Origin: Apoderus coryli
Taxonomy: Eukaryota > Arthropoda > Insecta > Coleoptera > Attelabidae
Length of the DNA stretch: 64,000 nucleotides
Direction: 5' to 3'
Assembly (NCBI GenBank): GCA_911728435.2
Contig: OU452201.1
Location: 27,032,001 to 27,096,000, forward strand
A program made the position numbers and the translations under genes. The notes under the pieces were generated by a model. It ran no database searches and was not told the origin of the DNA. It saw only the letters and a program-made list of their open reading frames with translations. Shown here one piece after another: positions 13,233-54,953 of the stretch; the stretch's first letter is position 1, and each line of letters begins with the position of its first letter.

Positions 13233-13606
13233 ATCACGGTTTGCAATTTTTTATAAAATAAAATCAGTATGGCGTTTGTTTACATTACTAAGATAGCTAG
13301 GGCGTTAGTTGTCGTTTGCATCCGGAATTGCTGAAATTGCTAAGGGACATATTTTATATTCTCTGTCCTTGTTGTGGGCACCGCTTCTGTGATTCAAGGA
13401 ATGCCTGCACCTATGCTATTTCCATATACTAATTGTATGCTATTTCGCATATACTAATTTTTGGCAGGTACTGATAAGGTTTTGGGCTCTATAGTTAGGC
13501 AACCCGTCAATTTCATTAATCCAAATATTTGAAGTAGGAAATAAAACGTCAGACTCCACGAAATCAGTTTAATTCATCACACTTAATGTGTTATGTCGAT
13601 TAAAGC

Positions 13607-13648
13607 ACCATACATGTTTCGAAGCTCACTAGCTTCATCATCAGTGGT
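13607..13648 (-). ncRNA. Hammerhead-like ribozyme motif, left arm
   Basis: The minus strand reads ACCA, CTGATGA, a single T, a stem GAAGC/GCTTC, GAAAC, AT, GTA, TGGT. ACCA/TGGT forms a 4-bp stem I, AC/GT a minimal stem III, and GTA the cleavage triplet. The one base between CTGATGA and stem II is unusual for a hammerhead. Confidence 0.55.
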
Positions 13649-13747
13649 AACATTTAGTAGAGAAACTGTATTTTGTAATTATTACATTACTCTTAATACA
13701 ATCATATAATGTAATAATTACAAAATACAGTTTCTCTACTAAATGTT

Positions 13748-13789
13748 ACCACTGATGATGAAGCTAGTGAGCTTCGAAACATGTATGAT
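13748..13789 (+). ncRNA. Hammerhead-like ribozyme motif, right arm
   Basis: This mirrors the left-arm motif. Here the stem I 3' strand is TGAT rather than TGGT, so one stem I pair is lost, while the core and stem II are kept. Confidence 0.5.
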
Positions 13790-13900
13790 GCTTTAATCGA
13801 CATAACACATTAAGTGTGATGAATTAAACTGATTTCGTGGAGTCTGACGTTTTATTTCCTACTTCAATACATTCACTCCACTTCAGAATGGACTACTTCT

Positions 13901-15113
13901 TTAAAAAAACCAATTATTGTTTAATTACTACTATTTTCTTTCATGGAAATTTTTTTCTATCTGGGTTGGATAGGGAAATTGTACCAAGATATTGGATGAG
14001 GAATTGATGGCGAGGTAATTAGTGCGGTACGCAGTTAATTTTTGCAGCCTATGAGTGATTGGATTTTACCGCGCATTGTTACCCGTTGAAAGGTTCTGTA
14101 ATTTTTGGTTATTTTGGTTGTTGGAATATTGATGAGCCTATTGACATTTACCCAACATAGTCTGACATAAGTTTACATCTTACAGGCAAACTTCGTCTTT
14201 CCTTATTAATAGGACAACGTGTTTTTAGGGCTTAATTTTCCGCTCCATACAAGTTTTGTAATAGTGGGTCGAGTACATCCTACGGATGATGACGTCCCCT
14301 GGAGCGAGATGTTACTGTGAAGTGTATTATAGGGAACGCTGGCTGTGTGCCTGGAAAATGTATGAGCGGGTGATGGTTTCGTAACACCTGTGGAGCTAAA
14401 CTGTAAGCTAAAAATTTCCTTACCCTTTTTTTCGTTGCTGTCATTGGAATGCTGTAAACAATTTTATAAGTGATAGTGTGGTGATGTTGTATATTTTTGA
14501 AACATTTATTAATTTTTCTCTAAAATATTTTGATAGTAAATTTAGTAAAATTGTAATTTCAACTCTTAATAATCCTGTGGGTATATTTTATTTAACCAAA
14601 AAAAAATTATAGAAGTGTTGTAAAACCCTTCGTGATCACGACTGGTACATAATATCGTTTGTATATTAATTCATTCGTTACTTTCTAAGTTAAAAATATT
14701 AAATTTACATATTTTATTGATATACTTAGGTAGTTACTTAATTTATTACTTTTAGTGTTCTATTGTTTGAATAATTTTTAAATATATTTAGTATATAATT
14801 TAATTCTTCTTATTTCCTTCCGATCTCATAATGATCTGAGGTATACGATCATCGTAGGTTTTCTGGCTTTACCGCGCAAGGCCAGTGGCGCTTTTTTTAT
14901 TAAGGGTGGTTTTTTTTTCCTTGCTATTTTCTTCCTTTTGAACATTACGAACCCACCACCCCAGTGAGTTGGTCCGGCAACTTTTGCTACACAATTACGC
15001 TATCTCATATTATTGTTCTTTTTGGAAGGGATTTTCAATTTGCGTCACTTAGTAATTTGGGCACGTAGGAATTGGTTGCCAACTTACAGACCTTTTTATT
15101 TTGCAATAAAATA
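13901..15113. other. No recognised gene
   Basis: There are no long frames, splice-site-flanked exons or repeat termini I could define. The part around 14.2-14.4 kb is less A+T-rich but shows no coding motif. Confidence 0.4.
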
Positions 15114-15115
15114 TA

Positions 15116-15962
15116 CAGAGTTCGTATAAAGTGTGGAAACCCCTGTATATTTGCAAAAATAATCGTTATTTTGAAAAATATTTTAATCAAAAGTTATTTG
15201 GGATAAATTTTTGCACAATCTGCAGATTGATAGCGATAACAGCTTTGTTGCTATGGCTACCAACTTTGGTTTTTTAAATGATATGGTATATTTTTTTTTT
15301 TCATTTTTAGGCAAACCATTTATTTCTGAATACGACAACATACAATTATTATAGGATTACATTAAAAAATAATTGAGAAAAAAATGGATTTGTGGCCCAT
15401 TAGAATAATAACTCATGAAAAAGTCTGCACACTTCTTCATAAAGCTGTTTTCTGTCACCGTAGCCCATCATCATGAAAATTTCAATTCTTTGTTCTTCCG
15501 TTAATTATGCCATAAGCAATAATGAGTGTTAAATTTGAGTTGAGGTTTCGGTTTTTGTTTGTAAGGAAAACTAACTGAACACAAGCATCTGACAAATTGT
15601 ATTTTTAGTTGACAGGTACAATGTTTTCCATGGTAGTCTTATAAAAATGTAATTTTAATGAACTGTAAACGAAGAACACGATTGTTTTATAATACAGTTT
15701 ATACTCAATTATTTACTGATGGATAAAAATTTTATGTTGTCGTACCCAGAAATATATGGTCTACCTATAAATGAAAAGAAAAATATACGATATCATTTAA
15801 AAATAACAAAGCCATTGCAACAAAGCTGTTAACGCTATAAAAAATTGAACATCGGCAGGTTGTGCCAAAAATTATATCAAATAACTTTTGATTAAAATAT
15901 TTTTCAAAATAACGATTATTTTCGGAAATAAACACGGGTTTCCACACTTTATAATCACTCTG
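15116..15962 (-). mobile_element. TIR transposon relic with long inverted arms
   Basis: The ends CAGAGT (15116) and ACTCTG (to 15962) are flanked by TA on both sides. The terminal 150-200 bp are imperfect inverted repeats of each other. On the minus strand at 15504-15400 a short frame reads LTEEQRIEI..MMGYGDRKQLYEEV..LF. This resembles the N-terminal helix-turn-helix of insect DDE transposases of the Tc1/mariner (IS630) group. The catalytic domain is deleted, so this is an internally deleted copy. Confidence 0.65.
15400..15504 (-). pseudogene. DDE transposase N-terminal fragment
   Basis: An open stretch of about 34 codons ends in a stop at 15400-15402. The MMGYGDRKQ and EEVCRLF motifs are typical of the DNA-binding N-terminus of a family of insect DDE transposases. 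It sits inside the TIR element at 15116-15962. The rest of the transposase is missing. Confidence 0.5.
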
Positions 15963-16265
15963 TATATTCGTATAGTTTACAAAATATCCCTTAACTGATG
16001 CAAAATATTTTAAATCTGGTTTTTTAGAAGAAACTGTGGTCGAAAATTTGTGGTTGAAAATTCCTCTCCCCAAAGTTAAAGCCTTTTCAAGTCAAGGGAA
16101 AATTTTGGTTTTATTTACTATCTGTACTATGGAAGAACTTAGAAGAATTAAATTTAGCAGTTTATGCTAATGAACTGTAAGTCTTTGGTAATGGTTTTAC
16201 AAGCGAGGTAAAAAATCAACCTATAGGTATATTTCTATTTAAAAATTTTGTGTAAATTCTGCAGA

Positions 16266-17465
16266 TCACATTTAATAATAATAAGCTTTATTGCTCAACA
16301 GAATCTATCCATTTACAGAGCAATACATTAAATAGGAAATAAATTTGACAAATACCAACTACATTACAATTTTACAAATTACAATACAATTTAGCTTCAT
16401 CTAAAATTCCCCTCAATAGGGTGAAATGTACACCACACGATTCACACATCACATTATAACAATTTAACATAAAATATATAGGAGAATTCAACATAAGATT
16501 CGTTCGAGCCCTCGGGCAGTAAAAAGTGCTACAATGCCTACCGGACACACGCGGATTACAAAAATTAATTTGGGACAGCAACTCTGTACAATCTATTTTA
16601 TTGTTCAGCAGTCTGTGCAGGGAGGTAAGAGCAACAGTCAACCTACGATATTCTAGGGACTCAATCTGGAGCCTACTTGTCAGATCGGTATACTCAATTC
16701 CTCTAGCAGGGTATACGTTATCACATTTAAGAAATCTTCTCTGTACACGCTCTACAGACGACTTATGACTAATAAGGATTCCAAACCAAACTACAATACT
16801 CCAACTTGGAACGCACAAACGAAAAGAATAAATAGAGCCTTCACGCATACAATATCTGTGAAACCTGTACAATTCCTGACTATAAAACCATAGGACTTCA
16901 TTGCATCCGCAACTTTACTCCCTATATGATCAACAAACGTTAATTGACAATCGAATCAAACTCCAAGATCTCCCATGGAATAAATACGAGATAGTTCACA
17001 ATCCCCAATCGAGTAATGATAAACGTGGAATAATAATCGTCGAGTATAAGTGACAATTTTACATTTCGCAGTGTTTAGCGGCTAGTGATTTCGGACACAC
17101 CAGTCCTGAAACGAATCCAGGTCCGTCTGAAGCCTCACACAGTCCGACAAATTACGAACACTTGTATATATTTTCAAGTCATCAGCGAACAAAAGACTTT
17201 TGCAATTTATAACATTTACAATATCATTAACAAATATTAGAAATAATAAGGGGCCAAGATTAGACCCCTGAGGCACACCAGATGTCACTGTAAATTCATG
17301 TTAGCTAAAGCCATTGCAGCACACAAACTGCTTTCTGTTAGACAGATATGATTTCATAAAACAGACAAAGTCCCCAGAGAAACCAAAACACGACAACTTA
17401 CTAAGTAAGACAGAATGACAAATACGGTCGAATGCCTTAGAAAAATCTATAAGTATTGCTTATTC
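16266..17465 (-). pseudogene. Jockey/CR1-like LINE reverse transcriptase, minus strand
   Basis: Read on the minus strand, DFSKAFDR (RT motif A, near 17430) comes first. SGVPQGSNLGPLLF and the catalytic LLFADDLKIY follow in 17288-17082. A separate frame (16872-16372) holds the thumb/C-terminal region with VERVQRRFLK. The 3' end is GCAATAAAGCTTATTATTATT near 16266. Frame breaks separate the motifs, so it is inactive. The endonuclease is absent and the 5' end is lost near 17465. Confidence 0.75.
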
Positions 17466-18380
17466 TTTATGTCAGGTCAACAAATTAAAATGTATGTTAC
17501 AGAGTGTCTAGGTACCACCAACATAGGACAACAGCATCAAATACCAATCAACGACAGAAGACTACCGCAACAGGACAGAACAAACGAGGACATGGAAAAG
17601 GGATGGTCCCGAGCCAAACAACAAATGAGGGAGAGTTTTAGTGGAGTTAAAGTCTACCACACTACTCAGGGTAGTCGTAAGCAACCCCCTATGAAGAATC
17701 AAATTCTTCACACTACATTATGTAACAAACAAATTTGTAAAATGATTTATATAAAATTTAAACTTTAACTACTTATTAATAATTTATGTTGACCATTATT
17801 TTTAATAATTTGTTTAAGCATATTGTAATTTATTAGTCAAAAAAATCTCTGCATTATGCTTAAACACATAAAGCACGATAGCTTTTCTTAGGTTTCTTAT
17901 AACTAAAATATTTTACTATAAAAATAAATATGCGCCTATTCACATTAATCAACCATAATTAGTATCTACACTGAAACAAAACAAAAATTCGATGTGCTAC
18001 CGAAATTTATTATATACCATCGCTGAGATTAATCTACCGAAACATAATTATTTATATGAGATTTTATATAAAAATATCTTCTCACCTTTTTTTTACACAC
18101 AGAATTTTTTGCTTATAATTATATATAAATGATAAACCCACCCTTTGCTAATAACGGTTCAAAGTTAAAATTTTTCGGCCGCTGCTTTTTACAAAAGGCA
18201 CAACTAATTAGCCTTGAAAATTAAGGGTTTTTGAAGTGGCCCGAATTTTCGATGACCAAAAAGTTTTTACCGAAATCGGTGTTCATATGTGTAATTCGAT
18301 ACTTTTTATTAATCCAACGAAATACATTATAGATCAAGAGCTGGCAAAGTTGTTAGGAAAATTGAACTAAGAATATAACT
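17466..18380. other. No recognised gene
   Basis: A + frame at 17415-17768 (GQQHQIPINDRRLPQQDR...) has no recognisable domain and overlaps the LINE edge. The rest is A+T-rich without boundaries. Confidence 0.35.
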
Positions 18381-18896
18381 CAACTATACAGATTTTATGT
18401 AGCTATTTGTAAATAAGAAATATACTGCACGGAATACATCAATGATAAAACCTAAAATTCTACTTATCGTGTTATCTGAAATAGAATAATCTAGCCATTC
18501 GTTATTGTTAGTTCCACTTCATCAGAACCCCTAGAGTTTCAACCCAACTTAAATAATAATAAAATAATAATTTCTAATTTTGACCAAAATTGTCTCAATC
18601 AAATTAAAACTTGATTGATTTTATCTGTAATTAGGAAAAAATGATTTACATGTAATGAAGTAGAGGCTACAAATATCTTTAACTCCAAACAAAGACAAAG
18701 TGATTGTTCTTTTGTGCAAAAACATGTTCTCGAGATGCTTAGTATTTCTTTTAAAAATATATATATACAATTAAAAATATTATTTTACTTCAATACAATT
18801 TACTTAGACTTTGGGATTTTTTTGTAGTCTCTGAAATAATAAGCACTATTTAAGCGATATGTTTAATCAGAATATACCTATTAATGTGTTTCGTTT
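18381..18896. repeat. Direct duplication, copy 1
   Basis: Highly similar, in the same orientation, to 18956-19515, with an offset of 575 bp. It starts CAACTATACAGATTTTATG and ends AATGTGTTTC. No coding potential or known element ends were seen. Confidence 0.8.
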
Positions 18897-18955
18897 ATAA
18901 ATAAAAAAGCTTGCCCAAAAACAGTTCTCTTAAAGATTTTCAAATAATTTTCGCG

Positions 18956-19515
18956 CAACTATACAGATTTTATGTAGATATTTGTAAATAAGAAATATAC
19001 TGCGCGGAATATATTAATGATAATACCTAAAATTCTACTTATTGTGTTATCTGAAATAGAGAGCTTGGTATTCGTGAACAATCTAGCCATTCGTTATTAT
19101 TAGTTTTTATATGTCTACTAATTGCGTTCCACTTCATCAGAACCCCTCGAGTTCTAACCCAACTTAAATAATAATAAAATAATAATTTCTAATTTTGAGA
19201 AAAATCGTCTCAATCAAATTAAAACTTGATTGATTGATTTTTTCTGTAATTAGGAAAAAATTATTTACATGTAATGAAGTAGAGGCTACAAATATCTTTA
19301 ACTCCAAACAAAGACAAAGTAATTGTTCTTTTGTGCAAAAACGTGTTTTGGCGGTGCTTAGTATTTCTTTTAAAAAAATTAATATACAATTCAAAATATT
19401 ATTTTACTTCAATACAATTTCCTTAGACTTTGGGATTTTTTGTAGTCTGTGAAATAATAAGCACTATTTAAGCGATATGTTTAATCAGAATATACCTATT
19501 AATGTGTTTCCTTTA
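18956..19515. repeat. Direct duplication, copy 2
   Basis: Second copy of the unit at 18381. It carries two short segments missing from copy 1 (around 19060-19080 and 19107-19128). The two copies are separated by about 60 bp. It runs into an ATT-rich microsatellite at 19515-19545. Confidence 0.8.
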
Positions 19516-20000
19516 TTATTATTATTTATTTATTATTATTATTATTTTCAACTAATTTAAGCTTGCATATTGTTTTTTTGTTGTTGTATTTATTTATTAC
19601 ACGAGTCAAATACTTTTATAAATAAAATACATCCGTTTATTAATTAAAGTACATATTACGCAATGGCATCAGTTTTGTAGTTTTGTTTTATTTTCCTTTT
19701 AAAAATTGAAATGGCAATTGGTTGAAGCACCTGCTGTGTCCCAATATTCAGAAATATGGGCAGATGCATTATTTGTTTGGACTTTTTTAAAAGGCATAAC
19801 GTAATAAATACATAAGTACTTACATGAGTTTTGTTAGGCTTCTTTATATTTAGTTTACAGCATATATACGAGTAAATTGAGTTTTGTCTAAATAGTACCG
19901 ATTCATGTGTACAATATTTTAAGGAATCATTAGATATTGTCTTTTTTTTTAGTTTCTCCAATCTAAACATTTCTTAAAATAATGTAAATTCGACACTGAG

Positions 20001-20012
20001 CATAACATATAT
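20001..20012. repeat. Left target-site duplication of retrozyme
   Basis: CATAACATATAT. The right counterpart at 20769-20782 is CATAACACATATAT, the same with one extra CA. Confidence 0.6.
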
Positions 20013-20222
20013 GAGAGAGAGATGTTTTTGGCGACACCTAGCGTGAACAGGCAATATGCCGGGTGAAACACAGTTCACTAACGATGGCCGGACAAGAAGT
20101 AACAACTCCATTATATCCTATTGCCAACACTAGATGCGCCCGAATCCCCTAGCAGGGAGGCTTTATTTAAGAATTGCTTGTTACATAAAGCAACAAGACT
20201 TTAAGTTATGTTGGAAATTTAT

Positions 20223-20301
20223 TTCACACTACCATGCTTCCACCAGACGGCCGTTTCGTCGATCCACGACTCATCAGTGGCGATCGGCAGGCAGTGTGAC
20301 C
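20223..20301 (-). ncRNA. Type I hammerhead ribozyme (minus strand)
   Basis: The minus strand reads stem I, CTGATGA, GTCG-loop-CGAC (stem II), GAAAC, short stem III, GTC, then the stem I partner TGGTGG. The outer stem I TCACACTGCC pairs with GGTAGTGTGA. The core is complete. The stem next to the core is CGCCA against TGGTG, with one mismatch or wobble compared with the 20635 copy. Predicted cleavage lies between + positions 20246 and 20245. Confidence 0.8.
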
Positions 20302-20310
20302 TAAATTTCC

Positions 20311-20385
20311 AACATTTACACTGATGAGTCGTGGATCGATGAAACGGCCGTCTGGTGGAAGCATGGTAGTGTGAAATAAATTTCC
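20311..20385 (+). ncRNA. Hammerhead ribozyme, stem I damaged
   Basis: CTGATGA (20321-20327), stem II GTCG/CGAT with a closing G-U pair, GAAAC and GTC (20350-20352) are kept. The 5' strand of stem I is replaced by the palindrome junction (CATTTACA), so stem I cannot form as in the intact copy. Probably inactive or weak. Confidence 0.65.
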
Positions 20386-20634
20386 AACATAACTTAAAGT
20401 CTTGTTGCTTTATGTAACAAGCAATTCTTAAATAAAACCTCCCTGCTAGGGGATTCGGGCGCATCTAGTGTTGGCAATAGGATATAATGGAGTTGTTACT
20501 TCTTGTCCGGCCATCGTTAGTGAACTGTGTTTCACCCGGCATATTGCCTGTTCACGCTAGGTGTCGCCAAAAACATCTCTCTCTCAATCAATTCTCGTGC
20601 TAGTATAAGCTCTTTGTAAATGTTGGAAATTTAG

Positions 20635-20712
20635 GTCACACTGCCTGCCGATCACCACTGATGAGTCGTGAATCGACGAAACGGCCGTCTGGTGGAAAGC
20701 ATGGTAGTGTGA
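20635..20712 (+). ncRNA. Intact type I hammerhead ribozyme
   Basis: All conserved core bases are present: CTGATGA (20658-20664), GAAA (20678-20681) and cleavage triplet GTC (20687-20689). Stem II is GTCG/CGAC closing the loop TGAAT. Stem I has CACCA/TGGTG next to the core. It then has an internal loop (7 and 8 nt) and a 10-bp outer helix, TCACACTGCC with GGTAGTGTGA. The internal loop sits where tertiary contacts with loop II are usual in natural hammerheads. Stem III is minimal (AC/GT closing GGCC), which often implies action as a dimer. Confidence 0.9.
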
Positions 20713-20768
20713 AATAAATTTCCAACATAACTTAAAGTCTTGTTGCTTTATGTAACAAGCAATTCTTT

Positions 20769-20782
20769 CATAACACATATAT
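20769..20782. repeat. Right target-site duplication of retrozyme
   Basis: CATAACACATATAT, matching 20001-20012 apart from a CA insertion. Confidence 0.6.
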
Positions 20783-21287
20783 TACACTTTTATATCAGAA
20801 TGTTTTATAACAAGTAAAACTTCTAATATAAGGGCATAATTATGAAGAAAAACAGAAGCTTCTTGCAGTACTGCCAATAACTCCAAAATTTTAAAAGTTG
20901 TTCGGGCTTGTTTAACAAAACAAAATTTCAAGAGCTCGAAACTTTATCTGTCACACTTCATGCTCCGAGCGGCGAAGTCTCCAACCACTCTCTTCAAACT
21001 TTACGACACAGAAGTGCAAATAAAAATCTTCCGTAACTTCCTGTTGCATAAAAATTTATAACTTTTGCGTTTTTCCACTCTTTCGAATATCGACCAATCA
21101 AATTGTCTATTCCTGGCGTCGTACCGCTTTTGCGGAAAAATGCCAATCAGCAAATTTTGTCTCTCTACTAGATACAATACCGATGTTAGACTGCTGAACT
21201 TTTATGAACTTCTATAAATTATTAATCAGCGAAAAATACTTAGTTCGACCGGATGAAATATTTTTATTAACTAGTATAATTACTATA

Positions 21288-23250: not shown

Positions 23251-23263
23251 GAACTAATATATT

Positions 23264-30324: not shown

Positions 30325-30680
30325 TTTTTATTCAAAAATACATGTTTCGACCCTAGCTAGGGTCATCATCAGTTAGGTAGAAACGACATTACATAACTCT
30401 AAAGAGGAGAGAAACATTATCAGCAATCATATCGCAAACTAGCACTACAACTTACCTAAGTGGAGAGGTTATATATAGGAAATTTTTATATATAGATTTA
30501 CATCGTCTTAAAACTAACAATTGGTAAAATAAGATTCATGAGGTATCCCATGATTTTAGTTATTCCTATAAGGAACCTCATGAATCGTATTTTACCAATT
30601 GTTAGTTTTAAGACGATGTAAATCTATATATAAAAATTTCCGATATAACCTCTCCACAGTAACATGGACTATTTTGTTAA
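30325..30680. mobile_element. Fold-back element with hammerhead-like motif
   Basis: Inverted arms lie at 30461-30544 and 30575-30656. To the left, the minus strand at 30340-30372 carries CTGATGA, T, a perfect stem GACCCT/AGGGTC, GAAAC and ATGT. To the right is the tail CAGTAACATGGACTATTTTG, similar to the tails at 13.5, 38.0 and 54.1 kb. Stem I of the motif is weak. No TSD is clear. Confidence 0.55.
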
Positions 30681-37966: not shown

Positions 37967-37978
37967 TGATCAGTTTCT
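37967..37978. repeat. Left 12-bp TSD (38.0 kb element)
   Basis: TGATCAGTTTCT, repeated exactly at 38604-38615. The neighbouring bases differ on both sides, so the length is exactly 12. Confidence 0.9.
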
Positions 37979-38052
37979 AAATATTCTTGAAATAAAAGTC
38001 GACCTCCACACAACAAATTTTAATAAATGTCTCCAACAAATTACAATTTGTT

Positions 38053-38093
38053 ACCATACATGTTTCGCAGCTCCGGGCCGCATCATCAGTGGT
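38053..38093 (-). ncRNA. Hammerhead-like ribozyme motif, left arm
   Basis: Same layout as the + strand copy at 38448-38488. The arm has one mismatch just beyond stem I (GGTAAC instead of GGTGAC) and the core is complete. Confidence 0.6.
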
Positions 38094-38447
38094 TATAAGA
38101 GAATCTTACGAAAAGCTATGTTATTTAACTTAGTTAGTACATATTATTTTTGGGAAATCTATTTATCAACTCACTGCGTGAAAAAACTTTTTCTTTCTCA
38201 AGTCATAAAATAAAAAGTTATTGTTAAATTAAGTATCGTTATAAAACATTTAAAACTAATAATTAAGGAACTTAAAAAATCCACATCATTACTAATGTAA
38301 GTTTCATGATATTTTTCTTTTTATAAATCATCGAAAAACCAAAATTTCCCCACGACAACAGTATACGCACTTGATTGATTGCAATTTCACACAACAATCA
38401 GCATATACTAAGTTAAATAACATAGCTTTTCGTAAGATTCTCTTATA

Positions 38448-38488
38448 ACCACTGATGATGCGGCCCGGAGCTGCGAAACATGTATGGT
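38448..38488 (+). ncRNA. Hammerhead-like ribozyme motif, right arm
   Basis: ACCA (38448-38451), CTGATGA (38452-38458), one T, then stem II GCGGC/GCTGC with loop CCGGA. GAAA (38475-38478), C-AT-GT minimal stem III, A at the cleavage position and TGGT (38485-38488) pairing with ACCA complete it. Only the extra T before stem II departs from the standard core. Confidence 0.65.
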
Positions 38489-38603
38489 GACAAATTGTAA
38501 TTTGTTGGAGACATTTATTAAAATTTATTGTGTGGAGGTCGACTTTTATTTCAAGAATATTTAATTATTCTAGTCCACTTCGATATGGACTACTTCTTTC
38601 GAA

Positions 38604-38615
38604 TGATCAGTTTCT
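38604..38615. repeat. Right 12-bp TSD (38.0 kb element)
   Basis: TGATCAGTTTCT, identical to 37967-37978. Confidence 0.9.
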
Positions 38616-41340: not shown

Positions 41341-41675
41341 TACTTTAAGTAATGTTGGAAATTTGTTTCACACTAATATGCTTTCACCAGACGGGTCGTT
41401 TCATTGATCCACAACTCATCAGCGCTGATCGGCAGGCAGTGTGACCCAAACTTCTAACATTTTCGAAGAGCTTATACTAGTACGAGAGATGAATGACAAC
41501 AACATGTTTTTGGCGACATCTAGTCTAGAGCAGACAATCTGAAACTAAGTTAACAAACGATACAGGATATAATGGAGTTTTTACTTCTCTTCCGGCCATC
41601 GTTTGTGAACTTTGTTTCACCGCGCATATTGCCTGCTCACACTAGATGTCGCCAAAAACATGTTGTTAAAAAGCT
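41341..41675. mobile_element. Decayed retrozyme copy with palindromic end
   Basis: The block order on the minus strand matches the 20.6 kb unit: TACTAGTATAAGCTCTTCG, then the hammerhead, then GAAACAAATTTCCAAC. From 41509 the sequence turns into an inverted pair: ACATGTTTTTGGCGACATCTAG is mirrored by CTAGATGTCGCCAAAAACATGT ending about 41665. Two unit ends therefore face each other. No duplication of the target was recognised. Confidence 0.65.
41367..41446 (-). ncRNA. Hammerhead ribozyme, partly decayed
   Basis: The minus strand has CTGATGA, GTTG-TGGAT-CAAT, GAAAC, and GTC before TGGTG. Stem II differs from the 20.6 kb copy at both partners (GTTG/CAAT for GTCG/CGAC) and remains paired. The outer stem I (GTCACACTGCC) is partly kept. 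The inner stem I beside the core is mismatched. Confidence 0.6.
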
Positions 41676-44927: not shown

Positions 44928-45920
44928 CACTGTGTTTAAGATAAGAATGGGATAACATTCCAATCTTGGAAACGGTAGAAGTTCCAATGAGGATTAAATA
45001 AGAGAAAAGTTGTAGAATTTAAACATCTTTTAAATGGTGTTTTCAAAAGTAAAGTAACTTTAGCCGTTTTCGAGAATTTTTGAAAAAACTTTTTATTTTA
45101 GTTATTATTTATTTCTGACATTATTTGTACAGATATAAATATAATTGAAAAGCACTTCTTCATTGTTACTTTTTGAAGAGTAAAAGATAGCGTTAACAAA
45201 TTGGCACTATGACGTTTCGTTTTTGAAAAAACCATCACAAATTTGTTTTTTAAATCCTGGATTTTTTATTGCTAAATTTAAAGCCATTTTTAATTCAAAA
45301 ATACGTGGTACATCACACGTTATGGTTTAAGCAAGTTTTCAGTATTTTTAGCTGCTATTTAAAATTATTCAAGAAAAATTGGACTTATTTTGCGTAAAAC
45401 ATGCATCTGAGAAAGGCGTTTTTTAATGACTTCAAAAAACACAAAAATTTCTGAGACAGATAATAATAAATAATTATTGTGAGTAACGACGAAAGAATGT
45501 TTTTGCTAAACCTACTACTCTGTATTCCGTCAGTTAAGTGCCAAACTATGGCGATTGTTCTTGAAGAAGTTTAAATAACAGCTAAAAATACTGAAAAGTT
45601 CTTTATACCATTATGTGTGATATACGACCTATTTGTGAATTGAAAATAGCTTTAAATTTAATAATAAAATATCCAAGTATTATAGTATTATATAAAAAAC
45701 GAAGTTGACGATAGTTTTTCAAAAACGAAACGTCGTAGTGAAAAATTGTAAACGCTATCTTATTCTCCTCAAAAAGTAACAATGAGAAAGTGCTTTTAAT
45801 TTCTTTATACCTATCTGTAAAAATAATGTCAGAAATAAATAAAAACTAAAATCTCAAAAAATCATTTATTCAAAAATTCTCGAAAACAGCTAAAGTTAGT
45901 TCGTGATTTATAAACAATGA
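44928..45920. mobile_element. Palindromic MITE family, truncated copy
   Basis: It begins CACTGTGTTTAAGATAAGAATGGGA, nearly the same end as the complete copy at 55414. It contains two inverted arms of roughly 450 bp (AGCCGTTTTCGAGAATTTTTGAA near 45062 mirrored near 45875). The right terminal repeat is lost. Confidence 0.65.
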
Positions 45921-46365: not shown

Positions 46366-46394
46366 CCAGTTTCGGCCAATAACCATCATCTTCA
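46366..46394 (-). repeat. Isolated hammerhead-like core remnant
   Basis: The minus strand reads TGAAGATGATGGTTATTGGCCGAAACTGG. It has a GGT/GGCC-type short stem and GAAAC. The first C of the core is lost and no stem I is evident. Probably a fragment of another fold-back element. Confidence 0.3.
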
Positions 46395-46432
46395 TAGCTC
46401 TACATAGAAAAAAGTAGTGAGTTTAATTTGTT

Positions 46433-47132
46433 AGTAGATTTTCAAAAAAAAAATCTAACTATTCAGGAGATCGACACAACCGAAATTTTGAAAATTTTTT
46501 ACGCAGTCCTTCATTTCATGACCCCTGGATCCTAAAAATGACCTCAGTGCAAAAGTTTATAATTTCTATATATCACGTTCTAAGCCGCAGTTTTTGACCA
46601 ATCGAAACAAAATTTGGTTAAAAATCGGCTAGGTCAATGTCTCGCTTGAGTTCGTTGGCGATTAAAATCGGAAAGTTTAGTTGTAAAATAGCGGCCAGTC
46701 AAAGTTTTAAAAAAATTATATTTTTTTCATTGCTAATAGAAATTACCGATGATACATATCAAATGATAGAGTACTTAAATCTCTACAATGTTTATTTGGA
46801 AAGTTTTTTCATTGCTGGCATATTTAAGTAAATGTAAGTCAATATATAGTAACAAAAAATTAAAAAAATATCATCACCCACTGCACCACCTGTAATTATT
46901 TTTGACAAATGAACACCTTGTAAAAATAACAATAAGACCGTACTTACGTATGTATTATAGTATAATGGATATTTCAGTTACAATAACTGTCAAGATGATA
47001 CTTATATTTGGCGACTGTCAGAATTTTCTATTATTTGTTTATTAATAGTTGTCAGTGGTAGACTAAGTATAAATAAAAAATATATAATCGAAAATCTACT
47101 TTTTCGACTGGCTGCCATCGGGATTTTTTTTC
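46433..47132. repeat. Dispersed TIR-like repeat, copy B
   Basis: Second copy of the element at 824-1532, in the same orientation, with the same AGTAGATTTTC / GAAAATCTACT ends and the same downstream poly-T. Small indels distinguish the copies. Confidence 0.7.
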
Positions 47133-48294
47133 AATTCTGTTTGACGATGCTAAGTTTTAGCCAAGCGCGTGCCAAAATTAAAAAAAATGTAAAGGTCTTC
47201 TTCAGTGCTGATCAGAAACTTAAATCCTAATAACAGATACGTTAGATATACCTCTAATTTTCCTGAATTGAATGAATAGGGTATAAGGGTTAAAATAGGG
47301 CAATTCATTTTTTATAATGTTGCCTTTATATCAAGTAAATATCTCACCTTTGATCCATAATTAATGAAATTATTCTGTAATCATAAAAACTACCCCATGT
47401 TCATTGCTTGTAAATCAGAATACGTTTATTTCAGCTTTCTGTATGTTATTAATTTTGGAAACCCGTTACAGATATGGATAGGGGAGTTTTCGAATAAAAA
47501 ATACGCGCTATCAACTTCTGGTATAACCGCAAGTGGTACTGCTACTTAAGTAACTACATAGTCATAGGAATCCTCTATCTGCCTTCACGTAAGTAAACAT
47601 TTGCAGTACAATTGAGCTGTGTTTTCTAATAACTTTATTGTGGTTTAACCTTAATTAAAAATTTTAACCACTGATAGATTTTCTAGCTGTGTTTTTTTTA
47701 AGCACAATATGAATAGGTATCTAAATGTTATTGCACTTATTATTATATCAGCCCTGTAGACGGTACACAACTCTGCTTTTATGTAGGGTAACATTTTCTC
47801 GAATTGTGGTGGTGTGCAATAAAAAGCCTCTGGTGGAGATCATCAGCCAGTCGTCGGGGCAGGTGGTTTTTTAAAAACCGAAAAACACCAGGCGCCGTAC
47901 ACTGCACTCTGATTGGTCAGACGACACGAGACCCAACAATGGGGATACATGCTACATAAAAAAAAACATACGTGTATAAATATCGTATAGCAACTCAGTT
48001 GTTATAAATCCATATCACGTTATCTTAATAACGTACACATTTTTATTCTAGTTCCCATAAGCAAAAATGACTCTACATAATATACAAATGTATATTTGTA
48101 TAATAGTGATATTATTATTATTTTCGCTCTTAGAAAATTTAATTTGACTGTGTGAAAATATTTGATACGAATAGATATTGAATAAAACACATTTTTAACT
48201 AAAAGCATAATATTAAAACAGAGGTTTCCAATAAGAAATTAAACTTTTTTTCCATAGAACTTTTACAAATTATCCTACCTACTGATCTAATAAC
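47133..48294. other. No recognised gene
   Basis: A less A+T-rich patch at 47.8-47.95 kb shows no coding or RNA feature I can name. Confidence 0.35.
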
Positions 48295-48306
48295 GAATAA
48301 ATATAT
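48295..48306. repeat. Left 12-bp TSD (48.3 kb element)
   Basis: GAATAAATATAT, repeated exactly at 48575-48586, with differing neighbours. Confidence 0.9.
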
Positions 48307-48574
48307 AAGAATTGCTTGTTACATAGAGCAACAAGACTTTAAGTTATGTTGGAAATTTATTTCACACTTTCCACCGAACATAACTTAAAGTCTTGTTGCT
48401 CTATGTAACAAGCAATTCTTAAATAAAGCCTCCCTGCTAGGGGATTCGGGCGCATCTAGTGTTGGCAATAGGATATAATGGAGTTGTTACTTCTTGTCCG
48501 GCCATCGTAGTGAACTGTGTTTCACCCGGCATATTGCCTGTTCACGCTAGGTGTCGCCACAAACATCTCTTTCT
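48307..48574. mobile_element. Retrozyme-family element lacking the hammerhead
   Basis: A left arm (AAGAATTGCTTGTTACATAG... to GTTATGTT) is mirrored by ...AACATAACTTAAAG to AATTCTT around a short centre. The body then continues as at 20.4 kb (CCTCCCTGCTAGGGGATTCG ... CATATTGCCTGTTCACGC) to ACATCTCTTTCT. The termini (AAGAATTGC and ACATCTCT) are the same two as in the 20.0 kb copy. The 12-bp duplication is exact. The centre where hammerheads would sit is deleted to TTCCACCG. Confidence 0.8.
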
Positions 48575-48586
48575 GAATAAATATAT
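48575..48586. repeat. Right 12-bp TSD (48.3 kb element)
   Basis: GAATAAATATAT, identical to 48295-48306. Confidence 0.9.
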
Positions 48587-48717
48587 TTTATAGGTATGCT
48601 CTAATAACTTAAAGCATATAAAAAATTTTGAATTTGATGCGATTTATATCCTCACGTTATTTAATTTTTCTCTCAACATCACTTTAGATCATTTTCAATT
48701 TTCTCGATTAAGTCAAT

Positions 48718-48729
48718 GTCTAATTTATT
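48718..48729. repeat. Left 12-bp TSD (48.8 kb element)
   Basis: GTCTAATTTATT, repeated exactly at 48960-48971. Confidence 0.9.
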
Positions 48730-48808
48730 TAATCGATGAGTAGAACCTTTGGCGTAGGACACTAAACTGACAATCGTTTTACCACTTCACCAAAACACTT
48801 CTTTTAAA

Positions 48809-48851
48809 TCTCGACGCGCGTTTCGCTAACAATGTTAGCATCCTCAGGAGA
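48809..48851 (-). ncRNA. Hammerhead-like ribozyme motif, left arm
   Basis: Exact mirror of the motif at 48871-48913. Confidence 0.65.
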
Positions 48852-48870
48852 GAATTAAAACCATTAATTC

Positions 48871-48913
48871 TCTCCTGAGGATGCTAACATTGTTAGCGAA
48901 ACGCGCGTCGAGA
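48871..48913 (+). ncRNA. Hammerhead-like ribozyme motif, right arm
   Basis: TCTC (48871-48874), CTGAGGA (48875-48881), one T, stem II GCTAAC/GTTAGC (48883-48897). GAAA (48898-48901), C-GCGC-GT, cleavage triplet GTC ending 48909, then GAGA (48910-48913) pairing with TCTC. The variable core position 7 is G here, which hammerheads allow. Confidence 0.7.
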
Positions 48914-48959
48914 TTTAAAAGAAGTGTTTTGGTGAAGTGGTAAAACGATTGTCAGTTTA

Positions 48960-48971
48960 GTCTAATTTATT
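48960..48971. repeat. Right 12-bp TSD (48.8 kb element)
   Basis: GTCTAATTTATT, identical to 48718-48729. Confidence 0.9.
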
Positions 48972-49184
48972 GTATTAGTATTGTCATTCCATATCTAACA
49001 TTTTTATATACGTTATCTGAGCACATTGTTTATCTCCCAAATATTCTAATTAATTTAAGTAATTTATTCCAAATCTAACATGATTAATAAACGTAAGATA
49101 TTTAGACTGAAGTTGTTCACATTCGTGCAGTGAGTCACGATATAGATAGACTGTAAGCAATTGCCTTAAAAATTTTAACGAAAA

Positions 49185-49890
49185 TAGCTAAACTGAAGTT
49201 TTACGGTTTCGATGATGCGTCTTTGTCCTTATTTAATTCATATTTATCTTTAAGAAAACAAAGGGTTTACCATAATGGCCAGTTTTCGACGGTGTCGGAT
49301 ATTACATCTGGTGTGCCACAGGGTTCAATTCTGGGGCCTCTGTTATTTAATTTATACCTCAGCAATTTGGAGTTCATTTAAATCATTGTAGCATAATATA
49401 GGCTTTTGCGGATGGTACACAGGTTTATTACTCTTTTAAGACGGATGATTGTGTGTATATTCACTTTCCACCGATCATAATTTAAAATTGAATCTATTAA
49501 AATCGCATATGTTGCTGTATAGTAATAGAAATGATTCTGACTATCTTAAAGAAAATGTTGCGGTAATCATTTTCCACTTTGAAACTTTTGTATTCGCATA
49601 GACATCTTTTGAACGGAAAGCTCAAGCGTACTCTCTGTGAATCACTAATTTTATCCAATTTTAATTACTGTGATTTTCTTTACGGTCCCATGTTAGACGT
49701 TTCTGATAGAAGACGTATACAGAATCGCTGTGCTAGATTTGTGGCGGGTCTTAGCAAGTTTGATCGTGTTTCTCTTTTACTTTTCAAAAGCCAGATAATT
49801 TCCTTTTTGAATGCAATGGGGGGACAAAACTTCGAAGATTACGGATGGAGAACATCGAGCTGTTATGATCATGAGCATTACTAATATAGC
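49185..49890 (+). pseudogene. LINE reverse transcriptase fragment
   Basis: FYGFDDASLSLFNSYLSLRKQRV and ITSGVPQGSILGPLLFN (about 49200-49345) are RT motifs. The catalytic box reads AFADGTQVYY, so the second Asp is Gly and the RT is dead. A later frame (49579-49884) carries LYSHRHLLNGKLKRTLCESL and SNFNYCDFLYGP, the RT thumb region. It differs in sequence from the other LINEs here, so it represents another family. Both ends are missing. Confidence 0.7.
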
Positions 49891-52824
49891 CGAAATGCCA
49901 ACTATTGTTAAAGTTAAAATAATTTGTTTTTCACTACTAAAGACTGGAAAATTACAAGCCAAGATAATTTAAATCGCATAAAAAATACAGGCAACTAAAC
50001 ATGTTTGGCTTAAATATATTATTTAATTTCACTTTCCATAATAACACAAAATTAACGATATTTATACTAAACTTACAGTACCATAACCTGTCTAATGGAT
50101 TTAAATAAACAACCATAATTTTCTTTTAAATAATAATAATAGTAATATCATGCGGTTCTTTTCTTAAATTAATAATGATAATATGCAGTACCTACAGTAG
50201 ATTTGCTAGGCATAAACTATTGTGCTGCCGTAAGTAAATGGCTTTTAAATGAGTATGTTATTATTAAAATACTAAACCAGGTGATTCACCAATGATGATA
50301 AATTATACATTTTAAGTATGACTAAAATAAAATGGATTCAGTAGGTACTCTGATGATTTGCCGCTCATAACAAAACACAATATATAAGGACAATTGTTGT
50401 ACATTAGAACACACACAACAACCCAATCCACACAAATTCTTAATCCATGTTTTGAATTCATAATTTCATGTGACAGCTCAAATTCATAAATAATCATTGG
50501 CCTGCAGATTCTGCGATAAACCCTGCTTAAACTTCCTAGCCTTCACATTAAATAGGTTTATATTATTGATGCCCCAAGGTTTGCAATAATTGCAGGAGCG
50601 CCATAAAGGTGTTCTGGATTGTGTGGAACCTTAAAACGTTTGTGATCTGTCGAGTAGGTAAAAATTTATTTGCTGCAATAAATATGGGCAATCGAGCTTG
50701 CTATTAATTAGCTTAAACAAGAACATTTGCGAAACAAAAATTCGACGCTACCGAAAGTGACCACAAGCTAAAACAGATTTTGTGAAAATGGATTTGAACA
50801 CAAAATTAAATTAAATAATATTCTTATTAAAAAATCAAATTACAAACAGTTTTTCCCGTTTTAAAAGTTTGCTTTTTGTTGATCATTTCTCAAATTGAAA
50901 TTATGTGTAAGATTTGGGTTAAGTTTTGTAAAAAAAAATACTTTTTATTTTCGGCACTGATTCCCCAAACTGTTTATAACTTACTTCACGTGCCTAGCCT
51001 TGATTTTATAATAATAACGTGTTAATCTGAAGAACCATTTCGTTTTTAGTTTATGGCGATGTGTGCCCAAGTGCGGGATTTATGCATATTTTTATAACGG
51101 TGAAGATTAATGAGTTCATTTTTAATCAGAAAAGAAAATTAACCAATTTGGCTATAATATTAAAAAAAGCCGAAAAGGACGACCACCTCTCGCACAATTT
51201 AGGATGATCTTATTCATGTAAGGCCGTGCGTGGTGTCTTGCTTAATAAAGCTGATTAACAAGTTATATAACATCACTTTTTAAAAAAATTATTAGCATGT
51301 TTGCGATATATATAATATATTTCAATAAAAAAACTTTTAGGTAATGATTTTGATGCATCCAAAATTTGAAAGCAGATATTTTATTGAAATTGTAAAAATG
51401 TTATATGAATTAATAGTTGAGAAGTAAAAAATATCTAGATGAATGCAGACAAAAGACAATTATTTACAAAGAGATCTTAACATTTTCAAATAAAGAACTG
51501 TTTTTCTATTCTGTAATTTTTTTCATAATAGTAAAGAATTGATTGAAATTGATCAAAATAGATACTGACCAGCTAAAGACAATACCTTCTAAATCGCTTA
51601 CTTTTCGCCACCCTGAAAATATGAGACAAGTTTTTTTAACATTAGTACTGATTTATTTATATAGGCCGGATTTTTTAGCAAAACTTATAAAAATAAACGG
51701 GTAAGCAATTACTAGTGAAGTTATATCTTTAACAGTTCTTAATAATTTTAGATATGATGTAAATACTGAGTATAAAATGGTAAAATTGCGGCTAGCAAAC
51801 ACTTATAATTGCTTAAAAACTTCGATTGTATAATTTTAAAAGTTTACCTTTTCATAATTCTAAAGCAAATCATCAGAATTTATAAAGATAGTTCGAGGCT
51901 ATGGCAGATGATAAGAATATACTCAAATTGCCTTGTACTTTTTCCTGGATAAGACCTTCAAGAAATGGGCATTTTTCACAAGTTCAAACACCTTTGAACA
52001 ACTATTGGTTTACTCATTTATTTTTATTTATTACCTAAGTACCTACATTAGGCCAATATTAAAGTCACAAACCAGGAAAATATGTTTTTTGTTTTTTGGA
52101 AAGCTCTATAATAGTATTTGACGTTAAGAAGTTACATGGTAGAGACTAGCGAGACGATTTATGACGGTCATGTGAAAAGTCTACAAATTTGTTATTGAGC
52201 TTTTTCTATTAAAACTTAATTCCACAGTAAACTTCTAAAAGTGTATTATAGTATTATTAGTAATTTTGTAATTTTTCCCACAAATACGGTTCTAACATAT
52301 ACCTATAGTGAACAGTGACGAAAAAATAAATATAGTTGTGGAAATGTTTTACATCGAACGCGCGATGTTTCAGGAAATGATCAGTCGCGCTTAAGTAGTC
52401 CCTGCGCGTAATGAATATGAATAGTAACCAAATTGCAAAAATGTATGGCCCACCCTACACTGACATCAAAAGAAAAAGCTCTATGTTTCAATCCAAGATG
52501 ATGGTTTATAGTAAGCTAAATATCTACGTTTATGCTAATAAAATAAAAAATATTCATCATTTTGTCATACGCATACATTATTTATGTACAAGAAATTGAG
52601 GTAGAACGGGATATATCGATACGTTTCTGATATCTCTATTAATGAAAGAACCATTTCCATGGCTCAACTTTGAACTTGCACCTTTACGATTACAAAGATT
52701 AAACGTTAACACATAGCGCAACAGGTATGCCATGATTGGTTTTTTAAAATTGTTATTAAATGCATACGCCGGCTGAGAACCTAGATGGCGACGACGGTAA
52801 AATACACATAATTTGAAAAAATTG
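49891..52824. other. No recognised gene
   Basis: About 2.9 kb of A+T-rich sequence without coding, RNA or repeat features I can support. Confidence 0.4.
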
Positions 52825-52937
52825 TCCATTCTTAAGTGGAGTTGTATATTTTTTCAATGACAAATAAAATTCAATATCCACACAAATAAATTTAATATAA
52901 ATTAATAAATATTGTCCAAACATATTTCGGAACTTAC
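52825..52937 (-). mobile_element. Half of a hammerhead-bearing palindrome
   Basis: Minus strand: GAAATATGT, then TTTATTTGTGTGG and CTCCACTTAAGAATGGAC. This corresponds to the outer arm and tail of the 13.5/38/54 kb group. The other half is not seen directly to the right, where the 52.9 kb element starts. Confidence 0.5.
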
Positions 52938-52947
52938 ACTAGTATAT

Positions 52948-53521
52948 TTATAATTTATCACTATATTTCGTATTTTTTGAACCTTCTTCTTGTATATTTT
53001 TATGGTTTACATTTTTGGGGTGTAGGTTCATAGATATTGATACGACTATTTTTGGAAATAAAAATAGTTCATTTTTATTTCTATGTCAAAATTTACAAAC
53101 AACGTTTCGTTGCATTATTTGCAACTTCTTCAGGTTTTTTCTTTTTTTTAACTTTTGACACAAGTTTACTAACAACTTTTTATTGAAATTGATGAATGAG
53201 AATTAATTATGATTATAATTTGAACGACATGATTTTAATTAGATTTATTTTGCGTGTAAGTATTTGAAATTATTGTAACACATGTCAAATGATGTCTTAC
53301 TCTATGTTTATTTATTTATATACACAATTTTAATAAAAAGTTGTTAGTAAACTTGTGTCAAAAAGTTAAAAAAAAAAGAAAACACCTCCAGAAGTTGCAA
53401 ATAATGCAACGAAACGTGGTTTGTAAATTTTGACATAGAAATAAAAATGAACTATTTTTATTTCCAAAAATAGTTGTATCAATATCTACGAACCTACACC
53501 CCAATGTATACCATAAAAAAA
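52948..53521. mobile_element. Fold-back element with hammerhead-like motifs (53 kb)
   Basis: The arms from 53001 and to 53515 are imperfect inverted repeats. The left arm on the minus strand (53101-53133) has CTGAAGA, one A, stem GTTGC/GCAAC, GAAACGT. The right arm on + has the same stem and GAAAC with a damaged CCAGA core. ACTAGTATAT occurs at 52938-52947 and 53522-53531, a possible duplication (10 bp, or 12 with two mismatches). That makes 52948-53000 the one-sided tail. Confidence 0.6.
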
Positions 53522-53531
53522 ACTAGTATAT

Positions 53532-54120
53532 AATAAAATAAAATAAACTTGGGGAAATAAAGTTTATGTTTAATTAAGCATCTGTGCGTGTGTCGGGTGT
53601 AAATAGATTTCGGATTAATTACGGTATTGCGTGAATAATAAGTACGAGGTGTAGGATAGCGATAATTTGAAAGGAATTCTGGCAGCATAGCTTTATAAGA
53701 TTGTATGTTGTTTAAGCGAGTAGATTCCATAAGAATAACACACGAATCTGTTTTCCTTTATAATGACTTTAATTTGATGAAAAAAGTGACGAAATGGTTC
53801 CCTTCAAAGAAGCCTCAACAGAAGTAAACGTTGCATTGCGGTGACTAATTAAGCATAATATGTTAAAACACATGGCATATTTTACACTTGTTTTGATTGC
53901 CAGAAATCCGTGCCGAACTTTACCCTGTTTTCGTTGAAGATTAGAGTGAAGAAGAGCGAACACATTTTATAATAGTTGCCATGCACAACCTTTGATAAAT
54001 TGAAACAACTTTTACAGTTTTGCTGTCAAATTTGAGCCACTGTGTCCATAAGAATAATAATTGCACCTTATATCGTATAATATTATCTAAATGAAAATTA
54101 ATTTTTGTAATTGCATAAAA
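53532..54120. other. No recognised gene
   Basis: Minus-strand frames here show no known motif. Confidence 0.35.
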
Positions 54121-54132
54121 AAGATTATTTTA
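54121..54132. repeat. Left 12-bp TSD (54.1 kb element)
   Basis: AAGATTATTTTA, repeated exactly at 54942-54953. Confidence 0.9.
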
Positions 54133-54238
54133 TTCGAAAGAAGTAGTCCATACTGAAGTGGAGTAGAATAATTGAATATTCTTGAAATAAAAGTCGACCT
54201 CCACACAATAAATTTAATAAAAATCCTCAACAAATGTC

Positions 54239-54279
54239 ACCATACATGTTTCACAGCTCCGGGCTGCATCATCAGTGGT
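54239..54279 (-). ncRNA. Hammerhead-like ribozyme motif, left arm
   Basis: Mirror of 54836-54876: ACCA, CTGATGA, T, GCAGC/GCTGT, GAAAC, AT, GTA, TGGT. Confidence 0.6.
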
Positions 54280-54534
54280 TATAAGAGAAAATTGACGAAA
54301 AGCTATGTTATTTAACTAAATTAGTACATATTATTTTGGGAATTTTATTTATTAACTCTAGAAACAAGAATGTATATATTATTTTCAATTGCACCAAAAA
54401 GATTTGAACTTTGAACTTACCATTGTGTGAAAAAATAAAAAAATTTTTATTGTTAAATTACTTGTTGTTGTTACATATTTAAACTAAAACTAATAAACTC
54501 ACATTATTACTAATGTAAGCTTTGTAACATTTTT

Positions 54535-54580
<46 letters not shown>

Positions 54581-54835
54581 AAAAATGTTACAAAGCTTAC
54601 ATTAGTAATAATGTGAGTTTATTAGTTTTAGTTTAAATATGTAACAACAACAAGTAATTTAACAATAAAATTTTTTTTATTTTTTCACACAATGGTAAGT
54701 TCAAAGTTCAAATCTTTTTGGTGCAATTGAAAATAATATATACATTCTTGTTTCTAGAGTTAATAAATAAAATTCCCAAAATAATATGTACTAATTTAGT
54801 TAAATAACATAGCTTTTCGTCAATTTTCTCTTATA

Positions 54836-54876
54836 ACCACTGATGATGCAGCCCGGAGCTGTGAAACATGTATGGT
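54836..54876 (+). ncRNA. Hammerhead-like ribozyme motif, right arm
   Basis: ACCA (54836-54839), CTGATGA (54840-54846), T, stem II GCAGC/GCTGT, GAAA (54863-54866), C-AT-GT, A, TGGT (54873-54876). Compared with the 38.0 kb copy two stem II bases changed (G to A and C to T). Pairing is kept as A-U and G-U. Confidence 0.65.
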
Positions 54877-54941
54877 GACATTTGTTGAGGATTTTTATTA
54901 AATTTATTGTGTGGAGGTCGACTTTTATTTCAAAAATATTC

Positions 54942-54953
54942 AAGATTATTTTA
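54942..54953. repeat. Right 12-bp TSD (54.1 kb element)
   Basis: AAGATTATTTTA, identical to 54121-54132. Confidence 0.9.

Follow-up and report, generated by a model that had tools for sequence, protein, structure and literature searches.

What inserts palindromes whose arms carry facing hammerhead ribozyme motifs, and leaves each of them with a tail at one end and a 12-bp target duplication? The question is raised by a 64-kb stretch (31% G+C) of the 428-Mb genome assembly of Apoderus coryli, positions 27,032,001 to 27,096,000 of contig OU452201.1 (G000:C10:27032001-27096000), which we call the window and whose elements are named here by their position in kb (E13, E38 and so on). Our data indicate that the palindromes are very probably insertions of Penelope-like elements (PLEs), made by extension of both target strands on copies of one hammerhead RNA, and that the retrozyme-like elements E20 and E48.3 arrived by the same route. 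For most of them the best reading is a PLE insertion cut short, with an anatomy that has already been published. To this anatomy we add a footprint that centres on 12 bp in several families, evidence from arm content against a fold-back origin for two of the elements, and the presence of that footprint on retrozyme-like copies.

Facing hammerheads in inverted arms

Inverted arms bearing predicted hammerhead cores lie at 13.5, 20.0, 38.0, 48.8 and 54.1 kb of the window, and in these elements (E13, E20, E38, E48.8 and E54) they are 98-368 nt long and 99-100% identical; those of E48.3 measure 49 nt, with 98% identity. A strict descriptor, requiring the core, a stem II of at least 4 bp and a stem III, locates 14 sites in the window; in 100 dinucleotide shuffles the mean was 0.03 and the maximum 1. 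The facing hammerheads that a preliminary description, made from the letters alone, had seen in inverted arms are thus real. Seven pairs (E5, E13, E20, E38, E48.8, E53 and E54) have the left core on the minus and the right core on the plus strand, the right cores of E5 and E53 being decayed.

E38, a head-to-head PLE-type insertion (37979..38603), joins a long tail-less left arm to a tailed right arm, with descriptor cores at 38062..38089 (-) and 38452..38479 (+) and the tail at 38564..38603 (+), between two presumed reverse-transcription start sites. E54, of the same type and family (54133..54941; descriptor cores at 54248..54275, -, and 54840..54867, +), has its tail on the left (about 54133-54171); a long T run (54540-54575) occupies the centre of its palindrome, where the arms meet. 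E13, also of this type (13530..13906; descriptor cores at 13616..13644, -, and 13752..13780, +), has a tail-less left arm and a right arm with the tail at about 13868-13906. E48.8 is a near-perfect palindrome (48730..48959) with its tail on the left (48730-48760), a left descriptor core at 48820..48847 (-) and a right core at 48875..48902 (+).

The sequence of stem II differs among families with its pairing kept: 83.7% of the cells are paired and 10 are changed on both sides, figures matched by none of 500 shuffles, while the number of stem II pairs showing both-side change (4) was matched by 67 of 500. Such covariation lends support, short of proof, to the predicted hammerhead pairing, the sequences being few and related. 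The hammerhead is the lowest-energy RNA fold in E38 (right core) and E54, and not in E20 and E48.8. The minimal hammerheads of the window have a very short core helix III with a palindromic loop, CAUG or CGCGCG; those of E38 and E13 are unrecognised by Rfam, and DNA patterns for the minimal class gave 0 matches in viral_contigs and genome_contigs.

Genome-wide, the core pattern occurs 19,788 times, against 2,546 for the reverse pattern. Contig C1 offers a less selected look, in which not all pattern places are hammerheads: the 60 places listed below 1.45 Mb include neighbours at up to 3 kb that stand head-to-head in 8 cases, tail-to-tail in 2 (both with unlike cores) and in direct order in 5.

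Target duplications, tails and the origin of the two arms

Exact 12-mers flank four elements: TGATCAGTTTCT around E38 (37967..37978 and 38604..38615), GAATAAATATAT around E48.3 (48295..48306 and 48575..48586), GTCTAATTTATT around E48.8 (48718..48729 and 48960..48971) and AAGATTATTTTA around E54 (54121..54132 and 54942..54953), where the match extends to 14. Flanking exact repeats of at least 12 were present in 4 of the 10 window elements tested and in 7 of 3000 random pairs. The one-sided tail and four exact duplications reported before stand as described. The flanks of E13 (13518-13529 and 13907-13918) match at 10 of 12 positions, which 23 of 2000 random pairs equalled, and are suggestive only of a target duplication. 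None was detected around the degenerate members at 5.3, 30.5, 41.3 and 53.0 kb.

Related arms and tails place the elements at 13.5, 38 and 54 kb in one family; a second comprises those at 20, 41, 48.3 and 30.7 kb, and a third that at 48.8 kb. The earlier description claimed at least three unrelated families of bodies, with "unrelated" too strong a word for members that share arms and tail. The tail is 25-41 nt long in E13, E38, E54 and E48.8 and about 155 nt in the E20/E48.3 family, and the tail-less end lies 81-110 nt past A9 of the core in the window elements. The tail ends of E38 and E54 coincide in position, and so do their tail-less ends. No tRNA-like tail was found in the window. A conserved tail hairpin serving as a start structure for reverse transcription was considered and dropped: measured against shuffles, the E38 tail has a clearly better fold (z -2.66), but the tails of E54, E13 and E48.8 do not. 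A9-U-G, described as a start codon in Anolis, is present in E13, E38, E54 and E48.8, but the frames that open on it are short by eye, and we do not claim it as a start codon.

The arms of one element agree at 110 of 112 positions in E38, 103 of 104 in E54, 115 of 116 in E13 and 87 of 87 in E48.8, whereas E38 and E54 agree with each other at 93-96 of 103, which argues that both arms of an element derive from one source sequence. A rival reading is fold-back, in which a single target-primed complementary DNA (cDNA) would prime on its own 3' end and so yield a palindrome. For Adineta Penelopes, the palindromic nature of inverted junctions has led to the proposal of self-priming on an antisense template (PMC3846280). 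In favour of fold-back are the near-perfect palindromes E48.8 and E13, with loops of 5 and 17 nt respectively, and a perfect one of 564 nt described below. A fold-back copy cannot, however, hold what the first arm lacks, and it would carry tail and flank into both arms. The left arm of E38 contains about 270-285 nt that are absent from the right arm, which in turn contains the tail absent from the left, and in E48.3 each arm likewise holds sequence missing from the other. Simple fold-back is thereby excluded for these two elements and two target-primed starts, one per strand, are favoured; for E13, E48.8, E54 and the copy on C10 described below, the asymmetry of the tail alone speaks against it. 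We regard fold-back as an improbable source of the palindromes in general.

Elements with open reading frames and the same ends

As the preliminary description held, the window encodes no PLE: a search with a reverse transcriptase/endonuclease (RT/EN) profile found no remnants there (best E 1.7). A PLE protein query of the whole genome gave 3532 first-look candidates, of which 101 were listed with a score, and many of these have long open frames; the named organisms among 120 listed RT relatives are insects. Searches of viral_contigs and genome_contigs with PLE protein and profile returned pattern matches among which no relative was confirmed. The 101 listed matches include 20 neighbours within 6 kb, 18 of them head-to-head, 2 in tandem and 0 tail-to-tail.

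We examined the ends of 10 of the 18 head-to-head pairs, which bear open reading frames (ORFs). A one-sided tail of 25-41 nt is present in all 10, and 9 have a hammerhead in both arms by the descriptor, within the pseudo-long terminal repeat (pLTR), as in the window elements; the tenth, L067/L068, bears the footprint and has no hammerhead by descriptor. The longest direct repeats at their ends measure 12, 12, 13, 11, 12, 11, 13, 15, 13 and 12, and 0 of 90 cross-paired flanks reach at least 11. The hammerhead and tail of E48.8 recur in the ORF-bearing pairs L061/L062 and L065/L066, so that its PLE partner is firm.

An earlier sample consisted of 10 head-to-head pairs around listed hammerhead-pattern places, compared over zones about 300 nt wide. 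Six flanking repeats are exact over 14, 12, 12, 13, 12 and 14 (L010 twice, L012, L013, L015 and L020); among 90 cross-pairings, 1 reaches 12 and 7 reach 11. L015 has an RT-bearing ORF enclosed by hammerheads that face each other, together with an E38-like tail; AACTTGCGATGA, present at 3039 and at 5477, is its exact 12-bp duplication. In L016 facing hammerheads enclose a GIY-YIG ORF. The PLE profile matches with E of 8.6e-60 (L015), 1.5e-17 (L016) and 6.9e-71 (L026). PF00078 is above cut-off in L015 and L026 and PF01541 (GIY-YIG) in L016; PF01541 went unreported in the partial frames of L015, L026 and L049, which match the RT/EN profile only. L026 also holds facing hammerheads of another family (CTGAAGAAGAC...) at 7629-8075, with long arms and no convincing duplication.

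Elements with this end anatomy therefore display the marks of endonuclease-bearing (EN+) PLEs: an ORF for an RT related to those of PLEs and telomerase, GIY-YIG, head-to-head pseudo-LTRs, a one-sided tail and a hammerhead in the pLTR. DNA transposons with terminal inverted repeats, moved by cut-and-paste or as foldback elements and carrying hammerheads by chance, would also have long inverted arms and a duplication of near-constant length. Their ends should be inverted copies of each other, which the one-sided tail contradicts; ORF-bearing copies contain RT/EN frames, the central starts of the arms vary as in truncated cDNAs, and the hammerheads read outward in all seven window pairs. We consider such transposons hardly credible here.

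The preliminary description had suggested one integration machinery for all bodies, with PLEs as candidates, and this is borne out by ORF-bearing PLEs that share end anatomy and duplication length. Lengths do not scatter widely: measured as maximal exact matches, they span 11-15 in 22 selected copies (12 of the family of E38 and E54, these two included, and the 10 ORF-bearing pairs), with 0 of 222 cross-paired flanks reaching at least 11. Its further proposal, that the machinery recognises the hammerhead, is unsupported, because E48.3 bears the footprint with no hammerhead, L067/L068 do so with none by descriptor, and a PLE inserts RNA with dead hammerheads in vitro (PMC11167929).

The E38 family across the genome

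The E38 arm and tail, used as a query, gave 1280 first-look candidates in the genome, 40 of them scored, with 41 matches. Twenty E38-type copies were taken by similarity that included the tail, so their shared tail end stems partly from selection. A left arm lies inside the stretch of about 1 kb in 9 of the 20, and in 8 of these 9 the duplication match is 12-15. Twelve two-armed copies (including E38, E54 and L020) could be compared at the tail, and in 11 one and the same nucleotide of the tail lies 0 or 2 nt from the start of the duplication, the exception being L029. Twelve selected elements with two located ends, this time including a copy on C10, have matches of 12-15, with 0 of 132 cross-pairings at 11 or more; matches longer than 12 fall where element and target ends overlap.

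The C10 copy (29678885-29683483), reached from L032, has the tail-less end of E38 at one side and its tail end at the other, between two occurrences of TCTCCAGTTGTT (match 13), and for about 900 nt the two arms match at 97%. Enclosed in it are remnants of a PLE RT/EN (L049 3667-4389 and 4290-4556; profile E 4.4e-28 and 8.5e-6). They lie on the minus strand, the one expected for the tail-less arm, and share about 69% identity with the ORF region of L015 over 827 nt. Nested within it is a palindrome of the L016 family (L049:4537-5136) that consists of arms only, with perfect arms over 564 nt, facing hammerheads, a tail and, at 4525 and 5137, the exact 12-bp duplication ATAATTGTAAAC; the PLE remnants lie mostly outside it. 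With its arms alike over some 900 nt and a second palindrome inside, the C10 copy was rejected as evidence to exclude fold-back.

The short palindromes might instead be a separate non-autonomous family with an RNA of its own, and not truncated transcripts of ORF-bearing PLEs. The great number of candidate sites for the E38 arm fits this idea, as do the C10 arms reaching about 900 nt from the tail-less end and the finding that none of the 20 E38-type stretches matches the PLE profile. However, the ends of E48.8 are found on ORF-bearing elements and an E38-family copy encloses PLE remnants, so truncation can explain the short copies. A separate family strikes us as rather unlikely, though less so than fold-back. 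For the autonomous partner with the same termini that the preliminary description proposed to seek, the genome thus offers ORF-bearing pairs, and the PLE partner of E38 is likely, next to the firm one of E48.8.

A retrozyme-like family

E20 (20013..20767) had been described as an imperfect member of the class. It does have facing hammerheads, but its arms number three, of which two form a direct tandem with a spacing of 337 bp, and its duplication is gapped (12/14-bp; CATAACATATAT and CATAACACATATAT). Its left arm has a tail of about 155 nt and a hammerhead at 20240..20283 (-). The right half holds about 1.3 tandem monomers ending at the tail-less site, with a first core (20321..20345, +) that is 5'-truncated at the junction and a second hammerhead at 20652..20695 (+). 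Both complete hammerheads are of canonical type I (RF00163; 28.1 bits on the left and 32.8 on the right, E 0.01 and 2.7e-4 over the window), below the gathering score of 34. The monomer between the predicted cut sites (20353..20689, +) has 337 nt and 43% G+C, and we found no frame of at least 90 aa inside E20. Tandem hammerheads 337 bp apart argue for a template that was an uncleaved multimer or a circle; similarly, L010 has three hammerheads (-,-,+), two in tandem 333 bp apart.

E48.3 (48307..48574) belongs to the same family and has no core. Both arms begin 3' of the hammerhead, the right one with a long tail (48421-48574), and the left one (48307-48377) begins within 1 nt of the predicted cut, by eye and in this single case. 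The core, previously taken as deleted, may never have been copied, the template appearing as if it were self-cleaved RNA. A diverged E20-family copy, E41 (41342..41667), retains one hammerhead (41398-41422, -) and no duplication was found around it.

Fifteen loci were compared with the E20 unit, and 8 of them were taken, with 4 window elements, to a duplication test of 12 rows; L001, L005, L027, L028, L073, L075 and L076, with short matches only, were omitted. Exact 12-bp repeats flank L010 and E48.3, and 13-bp matches flank L013 and L077, while the best of 132 cross-pairings is 10. In L013 the left arm is just 15 nt long, yet by eye it begins at the tail site. Among the copies examined, with no dedicated search completed, no ORF-bearing member of the family was met. 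Some retrozyme-like copies thus appear to bear the PLE footprint, with no ORF seen in their unit, as would be expected if PLEs mobilise retrozymes. Such a role agrees with the literature, which names PLEs as likely carriers of retrozymes (PMC7229834, PMC7761336) and reports trans-mobilisation of unrelated sequence by PLEs of Adineta vaga (PMC3846280).

Proposed mode of insertion

A PLE combines an RT with a GIY-YIG endonuclease, and its hammerhead-bearing RNA would be reverse-transcribed at the target. We infer such target-primed insertion from the duplications and the fixed ends. The enzyme would cut both strands with a 12-nt stagger, giving the 12-bp duplication, and the 3' end of each strand would prime on its own copy of the same RNA. 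Synthesis would have two fixed internal sites to begin from, separated by 25-41 nt (in the E20 family by about 155 nt); a start at one would yield the tailed arm, a start at the other its tail-less counterpart. Both cDNAs would run inward, stop at unequal points and join, which would leave head-to-head arms with hammerheads reading outward. E13, E38, E54 and E48.8 would then be insertions cut short before the ORF, and E20 and E48.3 tandem units of an ORF-less, retrozyme-like kind put in by the same route. In its most specific form, with a dimeric enzyme, the 12-nt stagger and two fixed sites serving symmetric two-strand priming, and the same machinery moving retrozyme RNAs in trans, the model is one towards which we lean only modestly.

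Several observations weigh against this mode of insertion. Two-strand priming is read from end products, no intermediate having been observed, and the membership of the 2.2 kb with PLE remnants in an E38 transcript depends on the single C10 copy. Matches vary from 11 to 15, not always 12, and duplications in A. vaga PLEs are of 8, 9 and 10 bp (PMC3846280), whereas those described here centre on 12. The two-armed copy L029 has no duplication, 11 of the 20 E38-type copies have no left arm inside their stretch, and when L032, L035, L036 and L041 were followed upstream a tail-less left arm appeared in L032 only. In the sample around hammerhead-pattern places, the exact match of L016 stops at 9, and no convincing duplication flanks L017, L018 or L026 (8, 10 and 9). 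Among the retrozyme-like rows, E20 is gapped, the 13-bp match of L025 is A-rich, and 6 of 12 (L017, L018, L074, L078, E41 and E30.7) have none convincing; L017 and L018 probably represent a single locus that was duplicated. At about 155 nt, the tail of this family also far exceeds that of known PLEs (30-40 nt).

The genome contains thousands of candidate copies, and those examined record both ends, the start sites and the duplication, so that fold-back and two-strand priming can be tested against each other by counting. Shared end anatomy and duplication length also provide genomic evidence linking PLEs to retrozyme mobilisation, of which the palindromes would, if this is true, be the footprint.

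Other features of the window

E5 (5299..5533) is a degenerate head-to-head pair with no duplication found, and E53 (53000..53516) represents a further head-to-head family, with a left hammerhead at 53104-53133 (-), an altered right core and no clear duplication. Single arms or fragments lie at 30.3, 30.7 and 52.8 kb. The first includes a single minimal-class hammerhead (30344..30372, -) whose partner arm was not found, and the last is, by arm and tail comparison, a truncated tail-bearing arm related to E38 and E54 (52811..52902, -).

At 6455-12937 lies an endogenous element of errantivirus-like type, whose three long open frames adjoin one another. Two related large imperfect palindromes (44975-45901 and 55410-56430), in which no hammerhead was found, possibly belong to another inverted-repeat family. 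At 3222-3294 there is a near-perfect short hairpin (35-nt arms, 3-nt loop) that scores below threshold with microRNA models, and a direct duplication of several hundred bp, 92-95% identical, spans 18381-19521.

Comparison with known systems

The palindromes resemble EN+ PLEs (Penelope/Poseidon; Pen2a and Pen2 of A. vaga), which have inverted head-to-head pseudo-LTRs, an optional one-sided tail of about 31 bp and a target duplication (PMC3846280). They differ from the A. vaga elements in that many copies here consist of arms only, and what the arms of E38 and E48.3 contain favours two-strand priming over the self-priming put forward for A. vaga. PLEs are also described with a hammerhead near the junction of pLTR and ORF and two internal RT start sites that bound the tail (PMC11167929). 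In vitro, Poseidon of Anolis cuts and extends both strands, its two start sites bounding the genomic tail; the later steps of insertion are called yet to be validated in the same paper. Reverse transcription starts there 111-118 nt into the ORF, compared with a tail-less end 81-110 nt past A9 in the window. The very short helix III of the predicted hammerheads in the window is shared with the minimal PLE hammerheads (PMC7761336, PMC6155905). In the literature searched we found no paper joining Penelope, head-to-head and hammerhead.

Metazoan non-LTR retrozymes have a published unit of 170-400 nt, and the excerpted text of PMC7229834 mentions for them neither head-to-head arms nor a duplication length; judged from the literature searched, head-to-head retrozymes are undescribed. 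The E20 family is like these retrozymes in its canonical type I hammerhead, tandem unit of 333-337 nt, 43% G+C, lack of an ORF and duplication of more than 4 bp (PMC7229834). It is unlike them in its head-to-head arms, two fixed ends and 12-bp duplication, in which it agrees with PLEs.

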